Source: Streptomyces sp. B21-083 (lineage in GTDB: Bacteria; Actinomycetota; Actinomycetes; Streptomycetales; Streptomycetaceae). From it: a stretch of 64,000 bases of DNA. Shown one piece after another: positions 3,735-60,377 of this stretch (position 1 is the stretch's first letter; each line of letters begins with the position of its first letter). Both the position numbers and the translations under genes were made by a program. Location: contig NZ_JARUND010000002.1 in the NCBI RefSeq assembly GCF_036898825.1, forward strand, positions 4,216,001 to 4,280,000, in the 5' to 3' direction. Below the pieces are notes generated by a model that was given only the letters and a program-made list of their open reading frames with translations, made no database searches and was not told where the DNA came from.

Positions 3735-5849
3735 GTGCTCAGACGGCTGCACGGACGCGGGGCGCTCTTCGACACCGAACCGCCGGGGCTCGCGCCCCGG
3801 CTCGTCGGGCTGAGACCGCACCATCACATCGCCGCTCCCCTGGAGCATCCACACGAACCGCCTTTCGTGGTGCTCACCGCCGGGCGCGGACTCGGCAAGA
3901 GCGCGGTCCTCGGCGAACTGCGCGCCGCCTACCAGGGGCACACCCCGGTCGCGCTGATCGACTGCGAGGACCCGCAGTTCACCCGGTCGCCCGAGCGGCC
4001 CGCGCAGGCGTGGTCACCGCTCACGCAGGCGCTCCTCGTCATCGCCGAACAGCTCGCCGAACCGGTCACCGGCGCCCGGCGGCTCGCCTTCCCACGGCTG
4101 ATGTCGGGCCTGATCGCGGTGGCCGCCGGCGGCTGGGGCGACGCCGACCGCGAGCGCATCCGCTGGGAGGTCCAGCGGATACTGCTGCTCAACGAGAGCG
4201 GCTCGTGGTTCACCGGGTTCGCCGCGCGCTGGGCGGGCCGGGTCGTCTCGAAGGCGGTCGCGGCGGCCATCAGTGACGACCCGCTGGTCTCGGCGGTCAT
4301 CGAAGCCACTCTGGAGGCGATGACGGAACGTTCCGCGAGCACCCGGCAGCGCAGGGCGTCCACCTGGTACCGCGCGTATCCGAACGCCGGTGACCGTGCC
4401 GAACTCGGACTCCGCCTGCTCTCCGACCACTTCAGGGCCGGCGGCACCTCGCGCGAGCACGCCGAGCGCTATCTCGTACGGGCCCTGCTCGCCGACCTCA
4501 CCGACGCCTACGCCGGGGTGCGGGCCCATCTGCAGCGCCTGGGCCGCCCGCTCGTCCTGGTCGACAACGCGCAGGGCGCACCGGGGCGTGAACTCGTCGA
4601 GCAGGTACTGCGCGACCGCGCGGAGGGCGTCATCGACCAGGTCGCGTTCATCGCCGCCCTGCGCGGCAGCGGCCGGTCCGCGCTGCGCAACGCGGTACGC
4701 CGGGACCTGCGCGAGACCGGTCAGCGCACCCGCTGGACACCGGGCGACACGGTGTCCTCCCGGGCCCTGCTGGTGTCGCTGCCGCCGCTGACCTCCGACG
4801 ACACACTGCACATCGTCGACGCGGTCTGTACGGGCACAGCGGTCCCCGTGCCCGCCGAACTCCCGCCCGCCACCCACCGGTTGACCTGCGGCAACCCGCT
4901 CGGCATCGCCCTGCTCGCCGAGTCGGCCCGGCAGAACCTGCCCCGACTGCCGCCCACCGCCCCCTTCGGCGCCCTGCTCACCGCCGAACTCGTCCTGCAC
5001 GAGGACCGCGAGGGCCGTCCCGCCTACCGCGAACTCCTCGACCGGCTCGTCCCCGCCGACCGGATCGACGAACTGACCGTGCTGGCCGCCGCCCACGACC
5101 ACGACTCCGCCTGCGCGCTCGCCGCAGCCCAACTCCCCGACGACTTCGGCCCGTCGAGCGTCCGCGCGCTGGAGACCCGGCTCGTGACGGAGGGACTGCC
5201 CGTCGTCCCCGGTCAGTTCGTCGGCGACGCCTTCGTCCGCACCCTGCTCCTGCTGCGCCTGCACCACCGGCACGCCGACCACGGCAAGTGGCGGGACGTC
5301 CACGAGACCCTCATCCAGCACTACGAGGGACCCGAACCGTCGAAGGCCCGTTACCGCCTCCACCACGAACTCGCCCTCGGCGACACCGGACCGGCGGTCG
5401 CGTATCTGCGCGACACCTTCCACACCCTCGACACCGGCACCTGGCTCGAAACGCTGCTGTTCGTCGCGTCCGCGCCCTACTTCCACGCCCATGACGCCGA
5501 GGGCCACGACTTCGTCGGCGGCGACCACCAGCGCGCCCGCATCGCCTTCGGCCACACCGACGCCGAGCAACGGCCGCCGGACGACGTGGACGCCGTACTG
5601 CATCTGCGGGTACGCCGACTCCTGCACGCCGTCTGGCAGTTGACCGACCCGCTGGTGCTGCCCGAGCGAAAGCTGTGCGACCGGCTGCGCTACGAGCTGG
5701 AGCAGCTGTCCAACGACCCGCGCGCGAGCAACGCGCTGCTGTGGCAGGCCTCGCAGGAGTGGCCCGAGGCGGCGCTGGCCGGCCGGCCGCTGCGCACCCC
5801 GGGCGACGAGGACGCCGACGACCGGAACAGGAACGACGGAGGCGTGTGA
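3735..5849 (+). CDS. P-loop ATPase of unknown function
   Basis: A 704-residue cytoplasmic protein with a P-loop near the N-terminus, AGRGLGKS at about residues 49-56, and a Walker B-like LVLVDNA at about 273-279. The remainder is helical, rich in Arg and Leu, and without recognised domains; the layout recalls STAND or AAA-like signalling ATPases, but no effector or repeat domain is clear. The GTG at 3735 follows GGGGGAGG; an out-of-frame ATG sits five bases earlier. The stop overlaps the ATG of the next gene by one base (TGATG), so the two products are made together and probably work together. I do not recognise a characterised homolog and leave the function open. Confidence 0.7.
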   Translation: MLRRLHGRGALFDTEPPGLAPRLVGLRPHHHIAAPLEHPHEPPFVVLTAGRGLGKSAVLGELRAAYQGHTPVALIDCEDPQFTRSPERPAQAWSPLTQALLVIAEQLAEPVTGARRLAFPRLMSGLIAVAAGGWGDADRERIRWEVQRILLLNESGSWFTGFAARWAGRVVSKAVAAAISDDPLVSAVIEATLEAMTERSASTRQRRASTWYRAYPNAGDRAELGLRLLSDHFRAGGTSREHAERYLVRALLADLTDAYAGVRAHLQRLGRPLVLVDNAQGAPGRELVEQVLRDRAEGVIDQVAFIAALRGSGRSALRNAVRRDLRETGQRTRWTPGDTVSSRALLVSLPPLTSDDTLHIVDAVCTGTAVPVPAELPPATHRLTCGNPLGIALLAESARQNLPRLPPTAPFGALLTAELVLHEDREGRPAYRELLDRLVPADRIDELTVLAAAHDHDSACALAAAQLPDDFGPSSVRALETRLVTEGLPVVPGQFVGDAFVRTLLLLRLHHRHADHGKWRDVHETLIQHYEGPEPSKARYRLHHELALGDTGPAVAYLRDTFHTLDTGTWLETLLFVASAPYFHAHDAEGHDFVGGDHQRARIAFGHTDAEQRPPDDVDAVLHLRVRRLLHAVWQLTDPLVLPERKLCDRLRYELEQLSNDPRASNALLWQASQEWPEAALAGRPLRTPGDEDADDRNRNDGGV

Positions 5850-52299: not shown

Positions 52300-52366
52300 C
52301 GGCTCGGGGAACCGGTTCGGGATCGGCAGGAGGATGTCCCGTGCCACTGGATCTTGACCGTTTGCC

Positions 52367-52432
52367 ATCGGACTTTGACGGACGCGAGTTTGTGCCATCG
52401 GAGTTTGATCACCGCAGGTCAGCGACTCAGCG
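52367..52432 (+). repeat. Inverted repeat, left arm
   Basis: These 66 bases match the reverse complement of 53339-53404 at 63 positions. The arm also contains local repeats of TGCCATCGGA-TTTGA with variant copies at 52341, 52362 and 52392. Together the two arms frame the DUF4232 gene. Confidence 0.85.
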
Positions 52433-52657
52433 TGCCGAAGGTGCACGCCGGGGGCGTGGTAAAACCCGTGGCGTGCTGGAGGTGCTTCTGTCTGCTCTGA
52501 CGGCCATCTGCACGGGTGCGGCCTGTCGTCACCGTTCCGTCACGAGTAGTCGCCGCACGGAACCCTGCCACTCTCCCGCCCTGTCTGCACTCACGTACCG
52601 CGGGGCGATAACCGACGACCGAAACCCGCGGACGAGACGACTCAGGGGGACAACACC

Positions 52658-53227
52658 ATGCGTCACAGCAACGGCATTCACAGGGCGGCTCTGGCGACGA
52701 CGGCGGTCACGGCCGTCGCGGCGGCGGTGACCGGCATCCTGCCCGGCACCGCCATGGCGGCGAGCACCACCACCTCCACCCCGCCGCCCGCCTGCTCGGC
52801 CTCCGCTCTCCAGGTCAGCGCCTGGCAGGCCGCCCACCCGCCCGTCGGGACCGGGACCGGGGCAGCGGTCGTGGAGTTCACCAACGTCTCCCGGGGGACG
52901 TGCGTCCTGAAGGGTCATCCGACGGTCGCGGGCGCCGGCAACGGCTCCCCTTCCCACAACACCCCGCTCAAGGTCACCGCCACCGGCAGGGCAGCCACCG
53001 TGACGGTCCGGCCGCACGGCAAGGCGTGGGTGAAGCTGACCTTCGTCCAGGTCCAGGGGGAGGGCGACGGCTACTGCGTGTCAGGCAAGACACCGTCGAC
53101 GTATCCGACGATGGTCATCGGGCTGCCGCACTCCGGGAAGCACCAGGTCGCCCTGAACGACGGGGTGTGGGCCGAGTGCGACAACAAGGTGACCGCCACC
53201 CCGGTTTCGGCGGTCAAGCCCTCCTGA
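52658..53227 (+). CDS. Secreted DUF4232 protein
   Basis: A 189-residue exported protein. It has a signal peptide (ALATTAVTAVAAAVTGILPGTAMAA) with a Sec cleavage site, a short Ser/Thr/Pro linker and a DUF4232 domain: CSASALQVSAW, AVVEFTNVSRGTCVLKGHPTVAG and the C-terminal C-X-n-C pairs that probably form two disulfides. Function of the family is unknown; it is abundant in Streptomyces. The gene is alone between two 66-bp inverted repeats. Confidence 0.82.
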   Translation: MRHSNGIHRAALATTAVTAVAAAVTGILPGTAMAASTTTSTPPPACSASALQVSAWQAAHPPVGTGTGAAVVEFTNVSRGTCVLKGHPTVAGAGNGSPSHNTPLKVTATGRAATVTVRPHGKAWVKLTFVQVQGEGDGYCVSGKTPSTYPTMVIGLPHSGKHQVALNDGVWAECDNKVTATPVSAVKPS

Positions 53228-53310: not shown

Positions 53311-53355
53311 GGGTCAGTGACTCAGCGTACCTTCGGTGCGCTGAGTCACTGACCC
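53311..53355. terminator. Strong 21-bp hairpin after the DUF4232 gene
   Basis: Bases 53311-53331 pair with 53335-53355 with one mismatch around a three-base loop. No T-tract follows. It overlaps the inverted-repeat arm, so it may be part of a mobile-element end as well as a transcription terminator. Confidence 0.65.
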
Positions 53356-53404
53356 GCGGTGATCAAACTCCGATGGCACAAACTCGCGTCCGCCAAAGTC
53401 CGAT
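53339..53404 (-). repeat. Inverted repeat, right arm
   Basis: Reverse-complement match to 52367-52432 with three mismatches. Its outer edge at 53404/53405 coincides with the abrupt start of the DUF433 coding similarity. Confidence 0.85.
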
Positions 53405-54007
53405 CACAGGCTGGCTCAAGGAATCGGCTGCGGGCGCCCCGCCGTCCATCGCGTCGAACCGGCGCGCAAAGGGCAACCGGCAATCCCCTTCATCGGCTTG
53501 GCGGAAGCCCATGTGCTGCGCGCCTTGCGGCTGTTCGGGCTGCGGGCGCGTGAGGTCCGGGACGCGGCAACGGCCGTACGGAACGCGTTCGGCACTCCCT
53601 ACGGTCTGGTCTCGAAGCGCGTCGCGACGGACAGCGTGGACATCTTCGGCGATCACGGCCATGAGCTGGTGGCCGTGCATCTCCGGTACCTGACCTGGGA
53701 AGGCGACGACGACTGTCCGACGAGCCTGCGGCTGAAGCAGTACGGGGAGTTGGCGCCCGTCGTGATCGACCCCCGGTTCGGCCACGGGCTGCCCGTCATC
53801 GCCGAGAACCGCGTCCCGGTCGGAGCCGTCATGGGCCTCCGGGCGGCCGGCGAGACCGTCGAGGCCATCGCCTACGAGTACGACATAACGCCTGAGCAGG
53901 TGGACTCGCTCTGTCAGGCAGTGGAGCAGTACCCGCCCGCCCGGTCTTCTCAGGCATGCCGTCTACGGGGCCACAGCCCGCACACTCAACGTCCCGATGC
54001 AGTCTGA
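53405..54007 (+). pseudogene. 5'-truncated DUF433 (antitoxin-like) gene
   Basis: The frame is protein-like from the repeat edge: VEPARKGQPAIPFIGLAEAHVLRALRLFG at 53453-53539, with the DUF433 core near the end (DPRFGHGLPVIAENRVPVGAVM, ETVEAIAYEYDITPEQVDSLCQAV). DUF433 proteins are small winged-helix, VapB-like antitoxins, often beside a PIN-like toxin. There is no normal start; only TTG/GTG codons inside. The tail after CQAV also looks degenerate, and no toxin gene follows. It overlaps the convergent methyltransferase by 45 bp. Confidence 0.6.
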
Positions 54008-54625
54008 CTTCGGTGCGTCGAGAACAACCGCCACCGCTTCCGTGAAGCCCGCCGACACGAGAAGCCTCCGCCAAGAGGCAGGCGTGTAGCTGTACCGGTA
54101 GGTGTATCTGGCCGGGCCCGCGAAGCCGCCCTTGTACATGCCCTGCGGCCCGTACGCCCCCGGGATGGCCGGCGGCTGGGCGAACGCGAACACGCCCCCG
54201 GGGTTGAGTCGTTGGCGAACCAGGGGGAAGAGTTTCCGGGGGTCGCTGAACCAGGCAGCACCGAAGACCGAGTACACGGCGTCGTAGGTCTCGGTGTCAC
54301 TCCTCAGGAAGTCGAGCACTTCGGCGCACACGAACTCGACCCCGGAGGGCCCCCAGCGCTGGGTGGTGCGGGCCACCATGACCGGGGACATGTCCACCCC
54401 GCGAGCCTGCACCCCCTGCCGCGCGAGGAACGCGAGCGCGCGACCCGTACCGCAGCCGATCTCCAGCACACTCGCGGGCTCACCGAGTACCTCGGGGCCG
54501 GGTCCGTGACCCGCGTACTGAGTCCACCGAAACACCGGCTCCCCCTCGAAGACGTCCTTGCGCGTCGACTCGGCGTAGGTGTCCCACACCGCGCGTTCGT
54601 CGTCGAAGTTGTGTACGGCGGCCAA
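53963..54625 (-). CDS. Class I SAM-dependent methyltransferase
   Basis: A 220-residue methyltransferase. The SAM-binding motif VLEIGCGTGRALAF is at residues 53-66 and the motif II region VEFVCAEVLDFL and DAVYSVFGAAWFSDPRKLF follows. The start is a TTG at 54625 with GAAGGA upstream. It is the last gene of the small minus-strand cluster that begins with three tiny coupled genes, but a hairpin at 54661-54712 separates it from the preceding gene. If that cluster makes a modified peptide, this is a tailoring-enzyme candidate; otherwise the substrate is unknown. Confidence 0.8.
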   Translation of the reverse strand: MAAVHNFDDERAVWDTYAESTRKDVFEGEPVFRWTQYAGHGPGPEVLGEPASVLEIGCGTGRALAFLARQGVQARGVDMSPVMVARTTQRWGPSGVEFVCAEVLDFLRSDTETYDAVYSVFGAAWFSDPRKLFPLVRQRLNPGGVFAFAQPPAIPGAYGPQGMYKGGFAGPARYTYRYSYTPASWRRLLVSAGFTEAVAVVLDAPKSDCIGTLSVRAVAP

Positions 54626-54660
54626 CGGGGTTCCTTCGGGGTGTAGTTGATCGCACGGAC

Positions 54661-54712
54661 GGATATGGGTGCCCCGCCTCTCTCGGGGTAGCGGAGGCGA
54701 GGCACCATATCC
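54661..54712 (-). terminator. Hairpin between the 170-residue gene and the methyltransferase gene
   Basis: Bases 54661-54680 and 54694-54712 form a long stem with one bulge. Without a T-tract it could be a leaky terminator. Confidence 0.6.
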
Positions 54713-54718
54713 GGTCGG

Positions 54719-55231
54719 TCAGTGGCTGTCGGGCACCTTGTCGTCGCACGGCCCGCAGTCCGACACGTCGACTTCCCACAGCTCGTCGTCGATCTCGAAG
54801 CCGTGCTCGCGGATCACGTCGGCCGTACGCATGACGGTCCCGTCACGACGCCGCTCGACCAGCGGGGCGTGATGCTTGTACGCGCCCCCGTTGTACACCT
54901 GGCAGAAGGCGAAGTAGACGGGCGTGTCCAGGATGATCTGGTGAATCCCGATGTCGACGGTGTAGCCCGGTCCGATATCGATGCCGGGACTTTCCATCGC
55001 CGTGATCAGGTAGGCGACGGCTTGACCGAGGACGCGTTCCGCGAGGCTGCGCACAGCGACCGAGTCGCGCAGCAGCAGCCGTACCTCACGCTCCCACAGG
55101 TCGATGCCCTCAGCTCCGGGGGCGTCGAAGATGTTGTACGTCTTGTCAATGACGTACGGGCGTACCGCGTTCAGCAACTCCCGAGGATCGCGGTACATCG
55201 TGCCGCTCCAGGCTTCCAGTGCGACGGTCAT
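54719..55231 (-). CDS. Protein resembling glycine-rich-domain (DUF1399-like) proteins, C-terminal CGPC
   Basis: A 170-residue soluble protein. A segment VDIGIHQIILDTPVYFAFCQVYNGGAYKHHAP (about 92-123) resembles the conserved WHxxILxT-x-YxxFC....HH-P block of DUF1399/GRDP-like proteins, from memory. His97, Cys110 and His120/His121 could form a metal site. The tail carries a thioredoxin-type CGPC at residues 159-162. The ATG at 55231 has GGAAGGGA upstream. It follows the Cys-rich peptide gene after a strong hairpin, so it may be made at a lower level from the same transcript. Function unknown; family resemblance tentative. Confidence 0.55.
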   Translation of the reverse strand: MTVALEAWSGTMYRDPRELLNAVRPYVIDKTYNIFDAPGAEGIDLWEREVRLLLRDSVAVRSLAERVLGQAVAYLITAMESPGIDIGPGYTVDIGIHQIILDTPVYFAFCQVYNGGAYKHHAPLVERRRDGTVMRTADVIREHGFEIDDELWEVDVSDCGPCDDKVPDSH

Positions 55232-55266
55232 ACTCGTTGTGTCCCTTCCTTGTGGGTGGGGTGGAA

Positions 55267-55317
55267 CCCGCCCCGACAGGCGACCTGTCCAAGGGTTCTC
55301 GAACCTGTCGGGGCGGG
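55267..55317 (-). terminator. Perfect 14-bp inverted repeat after the Cys-rich gene
   Basis: CCCGCCCCGACAGG (55267-55280) and CCTGTCGGGGCGGG (55304-55317) are perfect complements around 23 bases. It lies 36 bp past the stop of the Cys-rich gene and before the 170-residue gene, a placement typical of an attenuator that favours the upstream small genes. Confidence 0.75.
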
Positions 55318-55352
55318 GGCTCAAAGGTCGCCGGCAGCGGCGAGGCGGAACG

Positions 55353-55586
55353 TCACCATCGGATCGGCTCCGCGTCTCCCCCCGCACACGAGGGGCAGGG
55401 AACCTTGTAGTTGTAGGCGCACTGGGCACAGCCCGCGAATCCGCAGCAGCCCGGACACCAGATCTGGCACCACCCCGCGCACGTCCCGCACAGCCTGCCC
55501 AGGGGCAGGGGGATGCCGATAGGAACAACCACGTCTCCCAGCGCCGGAGAGGCCTGCTTCGTCATCTGGACGGTGAGAGCGGTCAT
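55353..55586 (-). CDS. 77-residue protein with ten cysteines
   Basis: A very small protein with a Cys-free N-terminal part (residues 1-32, MTALTVQMTKQASPALGDVV and on to PLGRL) and a Cys-dense core. Cysteines fall at 33, 36, 40, 44, 47, 48, 53, 56, 64 and 67, many as CXXC (CGTC, CPGCC, CAQC, CPSC), with Trp39 and Trp43 and Gly between. The tail is AGGDAEPIRW. The layout recalls a leader plus a modified or disulfide-rich core peptide, or alternatively a zinc or iron-sulfur mini-protein. The ATG overlaps the upstream stop (ATGA). I do not recognise a family. Confidence 0.6.
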   Translation of the reverse strand: MTALTVQMTKQASPALGDVVVPIGIPLPLGRLCGTCAGWCQIWCPGCCGFAGCAQCAYNYKVPCPSCAGGDAEPIRW

Positions 55587-55792
55587 CGGGCCGCCATTTT
55601 CGTTCTCTTGTGGTGCGGATGGTTCGCAAGCTCGTCATTGCAGTCGTTGACCCTCGCCGCGTTCGAAAGCCTGCGATATCCCTCACGCTGCTCGACCAGG
55701 GCCGCGCAGACACCGCAGCCCTCGACCGCGACGGGTTCGAGTTCCGGCAAAGTCGCGGCTGGGGCCGACGACGCAGGCATTTCAGCGCTCAT
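55583..55792 (-). CDS. 69-residue small protein with CXXC
   Basis: Begins MSAEMPASSAPAATLPELEP, then EGCGVCAAL (Cys26, Cys29), NDCNDELANHPHHKR near residues 48-63 and a basic tail. The two Cys plus the later Cys and His residues fit a small zinc-binding protein. Its ATG and stop overlap the neighbouring genes on both sides (ATGA each), so it is translated in a chain with them. Role unknown. Confidence 0.6.
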   Translation of the reverse strand: MSAEMPASSAPAATLPELEPVAVEGCGVCAALVEQREGYRRLSNAARVNDCNDELANHPHHKRTKMAAR

Positions 55793-55974
55793 ACGCGCAG
55801 CAGCCTCTGAAGTCCGTGGTTGACTCTCTGGACGACGGCGTGGTCAGGGGCCGGGAAGTCTCTCGGCCACCAAGCAGGCGCGTGCTCGTCGAAGCCGCGC
55901 CACTCGCCGGCTCGCACCGTGACGGTGCAAGGCCCTTCGTAGCCCAGCCTCCGCCCTTCGACCCTCTTTTGCAT
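55789..55974 (-). CDS. 61-residue small protein
   Basis: Starts at the ATG 55974 behind GAGAGG and reads MQKRVEGRRLGYEGPCTVTV, then EWRGFDEHAPAWWPRDFPAPD and a basic helix QRVNHGLQRLLRV. It is the first gene of the coupled trio and divergent from the XRE/TPR regulator over about 120 bp. Overlapping longer frames are antisense or out of frame. Role unknown. Confidence 0.55.
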   Translation of the reverse strand: MQKRVEGRRLGYEGPCTVTVRAGEWRGFDEHAPAWWPRDFPAPDHAVVQRVNHGLQRLLRV

Positions 55975-56095
55975 CGGTACACCTCTCACTGACGTTGTCG
56001 CTCTACGCAACCAAGTCGATGCGCACAGCAGTACCGTTGGAACGGCAGCAGAACTTGAACGACTTGAACGTCGGAGTTCGCGGGGAGTGGTGGAC

Positions 56096-57463
56096 GTGCC
56101 AAAGGGCCAGCCGAACGACAACCTTGCGCGACTGTTGGACGAAGGCCAATGGATGCATCGGCAGTTCGCTCTGTCCGTCAACCGGGTAGGTGCCGAACGC
56201 GGTCTGAAGCTCCGTTACGACGAGTCCTCCGTGGCACATTGGCTGGACGGAGTAGTCCCCCAGAAGACCGCGCGGCCGATCGTGATCGAGGCCTTGTCCC
56301 GACGCCTCGGGCGGCCGATCACGTACGAGGAAGCGGGACTTGACGCTCCTCCGAGCCTGTCCGGAATGGAGGTTGCGCCCACGCACGCCATGAACACCAT
56401 TGAGGGTCTGGTCGACACCGGAAGGGCAGACATGGACCCCTCGCGCCGTACGGTCCTCACGACCGCGCTCTACTCCGCAACGCTCGCCGTGCCGAACTTC
56501 ACCGAAGCCGACGAGACCCTGGACCGGCTTGAACACCAGGCCGCGGGCCGCACAGTCAGGATCGGCCCCGGGGACGTGGCCGTGGTCCGCAGCATGACGG
56601 ACAAGATCGCCGACATCCTCGACGAACTCGGGGGCGCTCACGCGCGGCCGATGGCCGCCGCCTTCATCGTGAATTCGGTCGCCTCCTACCTCCGAGCAGA
56701 CGGAACCGAAGCCGTCAAGAACGACATGCGCGCCGCCGCATCCGATCTCGTGTACCTCACGGGATGGATGGCCATGTACGAGAAGGCTCACGGACTCGGC
56801 CAGCGGTACTACCGACAGGCCCTCGGGCTGGCCAAAGCCGGCGGTGACGAGGTGACCTACTGCCGCACACTACGCGGAATGGCCCTTCAGGCCGCCAACC
56901 TCAAGCACGCGAACAAGTCCCTCGAACTCGCCGACTCAGCGGCAGAGGCCGCACCGAAGGCCGGACCGCGACTGCAAGCCTTCCTTCGGGGACAGCAGGC
57001 GCACGGGGCTGCGCTGGTCGGCGACCGAGGGCTCGCCTTCACCCGACTGACCGAGACAGAAACAGCTCTGTCGAAGGCGGACAACAGGCGCGACGCAGTG
57101 GGGGGCTACGATCAGGCGGCCTACCAGTTCCACGTGTCGAGCGTGCTGTACGCCCTCGGGGACGTCCCCGGCTCGGTCGAGGCGATGAAGGCATCGAACC
57201 GCGCACGGCCTTCGGTGGAGAAGCAGGGCAACGCTCACGCGAATGGCCTGCTCGCGCAGAGGCAGCTCGAAGTCGGGCACCTCGAAGTCGCGTGCTCGAC
57301 CTGGCACGAGTTCCTCGACGACTACGCCTCACTGTCGTCCGCCCGCGCGGACGAGCACTTCGGCATCATGCGTCGACGCATTCGCCCACACCTCGGCAAT
57401 CCGAGGGCGCGAGAGCTGAACGAGCGAGCGCGGGAGCTTGCTCGGCAGAAGGCCGCGGCATAG
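56096..57463 (+). CDS. XRE/TPR-type transcriptional regulator
   Basis: A 455-residue regulator. The N-terminal about 80 residues form an XRE-like helix-turn-helix (RQFALSVNRVGAERGLKLRYDESSVAHWLDGVVPQKTARPIVIEALSRRLGRPITYEEAGL). The rest is made of TPR-like helical repeats (LVYLTGWMAMYEKAHGLGQRYYRQALGLAKAGGDEVTYCRTLRGMALQAANL). Proteins of this plan are frequent in Streptomyces and often adjoin small genes that they control. GTG codons at 56087, 56090 and 56096 are all possible; GGGAG fits the last. It is divergent from the three tiny genes. Confidence 0.85.
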   Translation: MPKGQPNDNLARLLDEGQWMHRQFALSVNRVGAERGLKLRYDESSVAHWLDGVVPQKTARPIVIEALSRRLGRPITYEEAGLDAPPSLSGMEVAPTHAMNTIEGLVDTGRADMDPSRRTVLTTALYSATLAVPNFTEADETLDRLEHQAAGRTVRIGPGDVAVVRSMTDKIADILDELGGAHARPMAAAFIVNSVASYLRADGTEAVKNDMRAAASDLVYLTGWMAMYEKAHGLGQRYYRQALGLAKAGGDEVTYCRTLRGMALQAANLKHANKSLELADSAAEAAPKAGPRLQAFLRGQQAHGAALVGDRGLAFTRLTETETALSKADNRRDAVGGYDQAAYQFHVSSVLYALGDVPGSVEAMKASNRARPSVEKQGNAHANGLLAQRQLEVGHLEVACSTWHEFLDDYASLSSARADEHFGIMRRRIRPHLGNPRARELNERARELARQKAAA

Positions 57464-59712: not shown

Positions 59713-59991
59713 TCACGTCTCGTAAACCGTGGAGCGATGTCCGACATGGACGACCCACACGACCAGTTCACCGTTGTCGAGGGTGTAGATCACGCGGTAG
59801 TCGCCGACCCGGAGGCGACGGCGATCGGGCTGGGACACAAGCGCCGTGGTGCTGAATCCGAGCGGATCGCTCTCCAACTCCGTCAGCTTGGCCAGGATGC
59901 GCAGCGCCATGTCGCGGGGGACTTTCCGAAGCTCGGCCTGCGCCTCGGGCCGGAAGACCGTCCAGTACTCACTCACGCCGTGCTCATTCAC
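59713..59991 (-). CDS. RelE/ParE family toxin
   Basis: A 92-residue RelE-fold protein: EYWTVFRPEAQAELRKVPRDMALRILAKLTELE, then RRLRVGDYRVIYTLDNGELVVWVVHVGHRSTVYE. The Arg-rich strand and the C-terminal Arg/Tyr fit mRNA-cleaving RelE enzymes. Its start overlaps the antitoxin stop by eight bases. Together they form a type II toxin-antitoxin module. Confidence 0.85.
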   Translation of the reverse strand: MNEHGVSEYWTVFRPEAQAELRKVPRDMALRILAKLTELESDPLGFSTTALVSQPDRRRLRVGDYRVIYTLDNGELVVWVVHVGHRSTVYET

Positions 59992-60250
59992 CGCGCGCCA
60001 GGGTCTCCCTCATGATGTCCTCGATGGGGACGCCGGCAGAACGGTCGGCCATCCGCTCGTCGATGATCCGGTTGATCTCGCGCTCTTCCCACTGCTGGTA
60101 CTTGCGCAGGACATCGATCGAGACGACGGCCGCGACTTCTTTTCCTCGTCGCGTGATCACGGTGGGCTGGTCATCGCGCTCGGCCCGCTCGACGACCTCG
60201 GCAAGGTGTGCGCGGACGTCACGGATGGACTCTATGGGCAGCTGCGTCAT
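59984..60250 (-). CDS. Phd/YefM-type antitoxin
   Basis: An 88-residue antitoxin: PIESIRDVRAHLAEVVERAERDDQPTVITRRGKEVAAVVSID forms the DNA-binding dimer domain, and the C-terminal EREINRIIDERMADRSAG is the toxin-wrapping helix. The ATG at 60250 is used; the palindrome TGTGTACACA 26 bp upstream is a plausible site for autorepression by the toxin-antitoxin complex. Confidence 0.83.
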   Translation of the reverse strand: MTQLPIESIRDVRAHLAEVVERAERDDQPTVITRRGKEVAAVVSIDVLRKYQQWEEREINRIIDERMADRSAGVPIEDIMRETLARGE

Positions 60251-60275
60251 GCGTCCAAAGGTACCGGATGCACCA

Positions 60276-60285
60276 TGTGTACACA
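60276..60285. promoter_or_regulatory. Palindrome before the toxin-antitoxin operon
   Basis: TGTGTACACA is a perfect 10-bp palindrome, placed where autoregulation of the antitoxin-toxin operon would occur. Confidence 0.45.
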
Positions 60286-60377
60286 ACGTATCCAGGAGCA
60301 GACTCGGTCACGCCGACCGGAAGGCGGATTCCGGCGGACAGTCGCTACTCACCGCCCTCCGCCTCCCGTACGTCCAC

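Follow-up and report, generated by a model that had tools for sequence, protein, structure and literature searches.

A gene for a 170-residue protein, here named p170, and the gene directly behind it, for an S-adenosylmethionine (SAM) methyltransferase (MT220), form a conserved cassette in Streptomyces sp. B21-083. We found it in a 64,000-nucleotide stretch of contig NZ_JARUND010000002.1, analyzed whole (the window), from a genome of 10.5 Mb across 5 contigs. The cassette is the conserved unit of its locus and recurs across several actinobacterial genera. Within the wider family, which spans actinobacteria and phages, the p170 domain is kept while its C-terminal tail varies in step with the next gene. 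The simplest account of this joint variation is a carrier domain bearing a class-specific tail and served by a class-specific partner, and we tentatively put forward that p170 might be a phage-associated carrier protein whose tail would be modified by its partner. The features of the cassette are the following.

54719..55231, minus strand: p170, predicted glycine-rich domain-containing protein-like (GRDP-like) fold plus C-terminal tail (homologues, alignment, structure model)
54722..54757, minus strand: C-terminal tail of p170, residues 159-170 (CGPCDDKVPDSH); all 61 aligned sequences share C159, C162 and H170
54668..54706, minus strand: hairpin between p170 and MT220 (arms 54668-54680 and 54694-54706, 92% over 13), recurrent across loci
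53963..54625, minus strand: MT220, class I SAM methyltransferase of 220 residues with a TTG start (Pfam; directly downstream of p170)

The p170-Methyltransferase Cassette

MT220 matches the Pfam family Methyltransf_25 with 61.6 bits against a cut-off of 27 (E 1.2e-16). Among 68 p170 loci in named genomes, Nocardiopsis, Nonomuraea, Actinomadura and Actinophytocola included, a methyltransferase gene lies directly 3' of p170 on the same strand in 61. The match is on the opposite strand in one further locus (L039), and none was found in the other six; p170 is broken or cut short in five of these and intact in one (L065). In a sample of the genus, and among the matches listed, 82 of 139 methyltransferase places have a p170-like match just upstream and 82 of 150 p170-like places are methyltransferase-linked. 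Clustering of neighboring GC-filtered reading frames gave p170, the methyltransferase and regulators as the clusters common to many loci, and a literature search found nothing on the cassette. In locus L169 (1231-2301, minus strand) the p150 frame runs into the methyltransferase and the Cys tail is gone, by natural fusion or by deletion.

The family is large. A single-sequence search yielded 254 p170 homologues and a broader profile 756 protein clusters; a p170-like match is present in 172 of 295 sampled genus genomes, and members reside on chromosomes, on plasmids (39 records), in phages (7 records) and in 48 IMG/VR loci. No Pfam family, PF07173 included, matched p170 at E values up to 1; three homologues (P0123, P0129 and P0130) carry the precomputed accession PF27765.1. 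The predicted structure of p170 has a mean predicted local distance difference test score (pLDDT) of 85.6 and a predicted template modeling (TM) score of 0.84, residues 1-10 being poor. Its best fold match in a viral library, a comparison of one predicted structure with another in that single library, is a "Glycine-rich domain-containing protein-like" protein of Harvfovirus (probability 1.00, E 8.6e-3, TM 0.49/0.59), and a structure search of the PDB returned no match. The motif DxxxH...C...HH, which we take to be that of GRDP-like proteins (PF07173, formerly DUF1399), is shared by p170, which differs from them by its Cys tail and linked partner enzymes. The protein is predicted to consist of a folded GRDP-like domain bearing a short C-terminal CxPC...H tail. 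An alignment of 61 p170 sequences, few of them from outside class A, leaves eight residues unchanged: D93, H97, C110, H120, H121, C159, C162 and H170. Class B does not conserve H120. Relatives retain the domain yet end in other Cys tails, of widely differing length and spacing. A broken second p170 copy of the host genome (L115, C2:2751459-2751643) has the tail CSPCDNKVPDSH.

Tail Classes and Partner Genes

We tabulated tails and partners with trimmed queries whose alignments had to lie downstream of the tail gene. The 113 loci comprise 20 picked as methyltransferase-linked (L156-L175), 40 picked without a listed methyltransferase (L234-L273), 48 from IMG/VR, three host paralogues and two phages, so that the totals below reflect selection (about two thirds of the loci were picked) and not natural frequencies; the last eight queries were taken from the table's own loci, and self-matches are included.

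PDSH tail (n = 16): methyltransferase in 13, contig edge in 3, that is, methyltransferase in 13 of 13 where there is room
SNCH-type tail: methyltransferase in 8 of 8 (2 chosen as methyltransferase-linked)
CHxGC tail (n = 29): methyltransferase in 21 (17 chosen as methyltransferase-linked), APH-like in 5 (3 are query loci), edge in 2, none in 1
CCGDG tail: unknown protein of 115-142 residues in 15 of 15 (2 are query loci)
GRPYG tail: protein-kinase-like in 25 of 25 (1 is a query locus)
CQH tail (n = 10): small CxxC protein in 4 of 10, no recognized partner in the others
Unclassed tails (n = 10): APH-like in 3, CxxC in 1, none in 5, edge in 1

The 48 IMG/VR loci, which were not selected by partner, gave the methyltransferase in 21, an APH-like protein in seven, the unknown protein in two, the CxxC protein in four, none in seven and a contig edge in seven. 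Pfam assigned three partner examples to APH (E 3e-11 and 3e-7) and Pkinase (E 7e-8). Because the tail is kept within its class and the partner gene differs when the tail differs, p170 is a candidate substrate.

Two further observations concern these tails and their surroundings. Many class D tails in L156-L168 read CxxCH, the heme-binding pattern of cytochrome c, in proteins without an obvious export signal. A small gene with the pattern G.V...GVVM..G..VQLR..GG.EWDA was also seen by eye upstream of p150 genes of different tail classes (L184, 5371-5619; L112, 5562-5804; L019, about 80 nt before p170; L230); in phage Alvy this gene is gp54.

Phage and Mobile Context

The connection with phages is new relative to the original prediction for this locus. 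Seven phage records, from Alvy, TinaBelcher, Bowden, Thestral and TrvxScott, hold p170 at full length with 57.6% identity. In the temperate Streptomyces phages Alvy and TinaBelcher, a serine integrase on the opposite strand is followed, in this order, by a helix-turn-helix (HTH) regulator, a pair of small genes overlapping by 4 nt, p170 and the methyltransferase, the regulator being co-directional with p170, unlike that of the window. Relatives of the window's regulator occur in six phages (8 records), among them Ponzi and SV1, where they lie near a serine integrase or integrase. The 48 IMG/VR loci have a regulator relative upstream in 27 and an integrase relative in five; inspection by eye of the open reading frames beside the window's locus found no integrase. 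The methyltransferase is matched by PHROG 4752 (E 1.9e-11), and in Alvy it is annotated as a tRNA methyltransferase. From PADLOC it drew a match to no more of mad2 than the methyltransferase portion (positions 289-422 of 492, E 7.4e-20).

Elsewhere in the window, similar stretches at 52340-52500 and 53346-53483, noted by eye, encode MIKLRWHKLAS(V/A)KVR in opposite orientation and flank a gene at 52658-53227 in the manner of mobile-repeat ends. Two overlapping small frames at 59713-60286 (minus strand) resemble, by eye, a RelE/ParE-type toxin and a Phd/YefM-type antitoxin.

Locus Layout and Regulator

Upstream of the cassette lie a hairpin, three small genes and a divergent regulator.

55267..55317, minus strand: hairpin upstream of p170 with 14-bp perfect arms (55267-55280 and 55304-55317) and a 23-nt gap (inverted-repeat search; kept in L002 and L003)
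55353..55586, minus strand: p77, ten-Cys mini-protein with four CxxC pairs, zinc-finger-like (family profile; PHROG 28723)
55583..55792, minus strand: p69, small protein with CxxC and HPHH, joined to p61 by an ATGA overlap (homologue matches, company of p77)
55789..55974, minus strand: p61, small protein (kept in L002 and L136; codon pattern)
56053..56070, no strand assigned: tandem 9-bp direct repeat, ACTTGAACG twice, candidate operator between regulator and p61 (conserved stretch, shuffle test)
56087..57463, plus strand: regulator of the NsdA-family XRE/tetratricopeptide repeat (TPR) type, 458 residues (NCBIfam NF053720; relatives in Streptomyces phages)

The six genes fill 53963-57463 of the window, in the order that the original prediction had described, and all six recur in identical order in Streptomyces graminilatus (locus L002). 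This conserved order, together with the bias of differences in the small genes toward third codon positions, argues that the locus is real beyond chance. Much of the predicted layout stood: an XRE/TPR regulator diverges from three tiny genes, ATGA occurs at both small-gene junctions, a perfect 14-bp inverted repeat precedes a 170-residue protein with a C-terminal Cys motif, and a SAM methyltransferase follows a second hairpin. The statement that no known class could be recognized also agrees with our searches of Pfam and NCBIfam, in which only the regulator and the general methyltransferase match library families. In effect, two modules adjoin here, the regulator with p61, p69 and p77, and the p170-methyltransferase cassette.

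The regulator belongs to an NsdA-family TPR-like group (NF053720, 395 bits against a cut-off of 75, E 6e-118), NsdA itself falling short of its NCBIfam cut-off (65.5 vs 830 bits), and a Pfam search up to E 1 gave no HTH. Within the 112-bp gap between regulator and p61, ACTTGAACG stands twice in tandem, and L002 and L136 match the stretch TTCAAGTCGTTCAAGTTC without a change. Shuffling the gap 20000 times produced a perfect tandem of 8-12 bp 34 times, and 21 of 1141 segments of 112 bp from this sequence contain one; the repeat is likely an operator, a candidate read from the sequence. Searches with six regulators, all from the host genome, place a relative upstream of p170, at most 3.5 kb away, in 33 of the 68 loci and 0.7-4.7 kb downstream in nine. 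Adding 11 locus-derived regulators raises the upstream count to 57 of 68, against nine of 68 downstream, a figure that is partly circular because 11 of the 17 queries come from these very loci; two of the added queries (L023 and L028) had no Pfam match at 0.01. Locus L113 (3864-5501, minus strand) has a triplet of p85, DUF6879 (Pfam E 8.8e-55) and an XRE gene divergent from a p150 with a CCGDG tail; several of the 68 p170 loci carry the triplet ahead of p170.

This arrangement has parallels. In the WhiJ9-iosA pair of Streptomyces venezuelae, an XRE-family regulator is divergent from a small effector gene and binds direct repeats between the two (PMC10294661). The window likewise has a regulator divergent from a small gene with direct repeats between; WhiJ9 is of another regulator subfamily than the NsdA family. 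The effector IosA is a protein of 15 kDa with an isoelectric point of 10.3, and the available excerpt of that report mentions no methyltransferase (PMC10294661). RRNPP systems pair a TPR receptor of 250-500 residues with an adjacent gene for 10-100 residues, also on phages and plasmids, and the available part of the source treats them as a system of Firmicutes (PMC10075063). The 458-residue TPR-like regulator beside p61 has this layout, a likeness of genes as far as that part of the source describes them.

The Small Genes

Differences at codon positions 1/2/3 number 23/18/30 in p61, 15/16/30 in p69 and 24/21/38 in p77; this concentration on third positions shows that the small genes are translated. 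Matches to p69 occur in 14 of 61 related genomes, and a p69-like gene adjoins p77 in 15 of 30 p77 loci (2.3-3.2 kb each, the window's own included). A single-sequence search with p77 returned one homologue among 5.8 billion proteins, and a profile built from six relatives matched 46 of 392 genus genomes at E 0.01. The original prediction had described a Cys-free first half and a Cys-rich core, and p77 indeed has its ten Cys in residues 33-67 and none earlier; as the suggested alignment of homologues makes clear, the Cys part is better conserved than the N-terminal part. Four CxxC pairs, eight Cys in all, are kept in 27 of the 30 loci; conservation does not extend to the remaining two Cys of the window's protein. 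A profile comparison of the family with the host genome's own DnaJ sequences gave a probability of 76.8, against 1.1 for the reversed family; the 26 p77 sequences used had been selected with a pattern that already requires most of the Cys. Like the DnaJ Cys-rich domain (PF00684), p77 has four CxxC pairs, three of them CxxCxG, and it differs in its tighter spacing and in lacking the full set of four CxxCxGxG repeats. Pfam returned no match for p77, PHROG 28723 matched it (E 3.5e-8), and its AlphaFold model is of poor confidence (pLDDT 38.7).

That p77 is a RiPP (ribosomally synthesized and post-translationally modified peptide) precursor, its ten-Cys part serving as a core that p170, the methyltransferase or both would mature, we regard as highly improbable. 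A small gene ahead of an enzyme, the hairpin between them and the lesser conservation of the N-terminal part would suit such a role. Against it, neither p170 nor the methyltransferase adjoins p77 in 26 of the 30 loci (the four with either are L126, L127, L128 and L153), and conversely a p77 match occurs in only three of the 68 p170 loci (L002, L003 and L006), with L074 of the genus sample as another. In locus L136 a similar regulator accompanies p61, p69 and p77, and the stretch covered contains neither p170 nor a methyltransferase. In the phages Vash and Sycamore p77-like genes lie near a serine integrase and are followed by an integrase or another gene, not by p170 or the methyltransferase. 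(In the Vash record, L181, the p77-like frame at 3848-4144, between genes 51 and 52 and near HTH gene 50 and the serine integrase, is unannotated.) Because its four CxxC pairs are DnaJ-like and 26 of 30 loci lack p170 and the methyltransferase, p77 reads from its sequence as probably a small double zinc-finger protein of a phage-type regulatory module and not a peptide product. Thus, of the proposed RiPP-like locus, the succession of regulator, small genes, hairpin and enzyme stands, and the 77-mer as modified peptide is not supported: homologues scattered without the neighboring genes, a result that the original prediction had named as refuting it, were found, along with a zinc-finger-like pattern; the zinc-ribbon alternative finds the pattern without a match to a named zinc-ribbon family in Pfam. 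That prediction recognized a layout of substrate plus enzyme and assigned the part of substrate to the wrong gene: if anything here resembles a precursor, sequence comparison points to p170 rather than p77.

Hairpins Flanking p170

The upstream hairpin is almost unchanged in L002 and L003. Over 79 loci its arms reach at least 9 bp in 43, which is not clearly above chance, because 151 of 395 shuffles attain the observed arm. Some class A loci share, ahead of p170, a recurrent stem with inner CCCTGGACAGG; in its consensus two of seven pairs change on both sides, fold z-scores range from -5.2 to -0.5, and a terminator is as likely as a regulatory RNA. Stems with an inner (C)CTGGACAGG-like stretch were seen 35-50 nt before p170 in the window, L012, L013, L020, L022, L023, L026, L081-L083, L087 and L089. 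The hairpin between p170 and the methyltransferase has arms of at least 9 bp in 69 of 79 loci, and 85 of 790 mononucleotide shuffles attain the observed arm. TAnnnT was noted by eye ahead of it in alignment A8.

Weighing the Explanations

Our reading of p170 as a carrier with a partner-modified tail is held at somewhat less than an even chance, since separate inheritance could give the same table and a CxxC...His tail also suits a metal site. In its favor stand the adjacency of p170 and methyltransferase, the pairing of tails with next genes, the shared layout in Alvy and TinaBelcher, the recurrent hairpin within the cassette and the more frequent regulators upstream than downstream. Each tail class may simply reflect one line of descent in which tail and partner were passed on jointly, so their joint variation is not independent proof. 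Several other points weigh against the reading: L065 keeps its intact p170 with no detectable methyltransferase; recognized partners accompany just four of ten CQH tails and four of ten unclassed tails; the tail hardly varies within class A, unlike most peptide products; and of the folded parts of the model the tail is the least secure (pLDDT 55 for residues 161-170). Matches of the methyltransferase are to general families and to those of tRNA methyltransferases (Pfam, PHROG), and the GC-filtered neighbor clustering gave no additional shared gene, for example a protease or exporter, no dedicated search having been made. In an alternative scenario, which we judge rather unlikely, p170 is a metalloprotein, a sensor, chaperone or subunit, in which the tail Cys and His and the conserved Asp, His and Cys of the GRDP-like domain complete a zinc or iron site and the partners make or modify something else. 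The eight invariant residues fit it, a structural role agreeing with invariance up to the last residue, as do the Cys/His motifs, such as CxxCHxGC, that end other classes. However, the domain is kept across classes whose tails have very different lengths and spacings, partner and tail change together, and H120 is not conserved in class B. The pair might instead serve phage immunity, superinfection or anti-defence, the methyltransferase acting on tRNA, DNA or a host factor with p170 as its partner and the regulator as lysogeny switch. The neighboring serine integrase and regulator in Alvy and TinaBelcher, the regulator relatives in phages, and the Alvy annotation and PHROG match favor this idea. 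It seems to us unlikely, given that kinase-like and unknown partners of other classes are ill-suited to one nucleic-acid substrate, that PADLOC recovers a mere part of mad2, and that the cassette also occurs on chromosomes with no adjacent integrase.

Under the carrier reading, the regulator would bind the 9-bp repeats and control the small operon and perhaps the p170-methyltransferase cassette, and the hairpin within the cassette would yield more p170 than enzyme. The GRDP-like domain would serve as carrier or leader and the methyltransferase as a dedicated SAM enzyme that methylates the p170 tail. The modified p170, or a peptide cut from it, might then act in a phage/host decision governed by the regulator. 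A broader proposal, and an unlikely one in our estimation, is that of a widespread actinobacterial and phage system in which a folded GRDP-like leader presents class-specific Cys tails matured by their own partners and the regulator may sense the product, together making up an undescribed phage-borne class of ribosomal peptides or peptide signals.

Comparison and Significance

RiPP precursors with folded or enzyme-like leaders include those with nitrile-hydratase-type leaders and Nif11. Like them, p170 has a conserved N-terminal domain, a variable Cys-bearing C-terminus and a candidate modifying enzyme next door, the gene adjacent in 61 of 68 loci being one whose product may modify the tail. 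It differs in its GRDP-like domain, its one partner gene and the near invariance of the class A tail, so that the pattern of conserved leader and variable core appears between classes and not within class A. The p170-methyltransferase family is common, and a Pfam number is the most that its homologues have attached to them. Should the tail be a metal site, p170 would suggest a first function for the GRDP-like fold, for which no solved structure matched here. Should it be a substrate, a single domain combined with several tails and enzymes would offer a series on how folded leaders recruit enzymes, tied to phage regulators.

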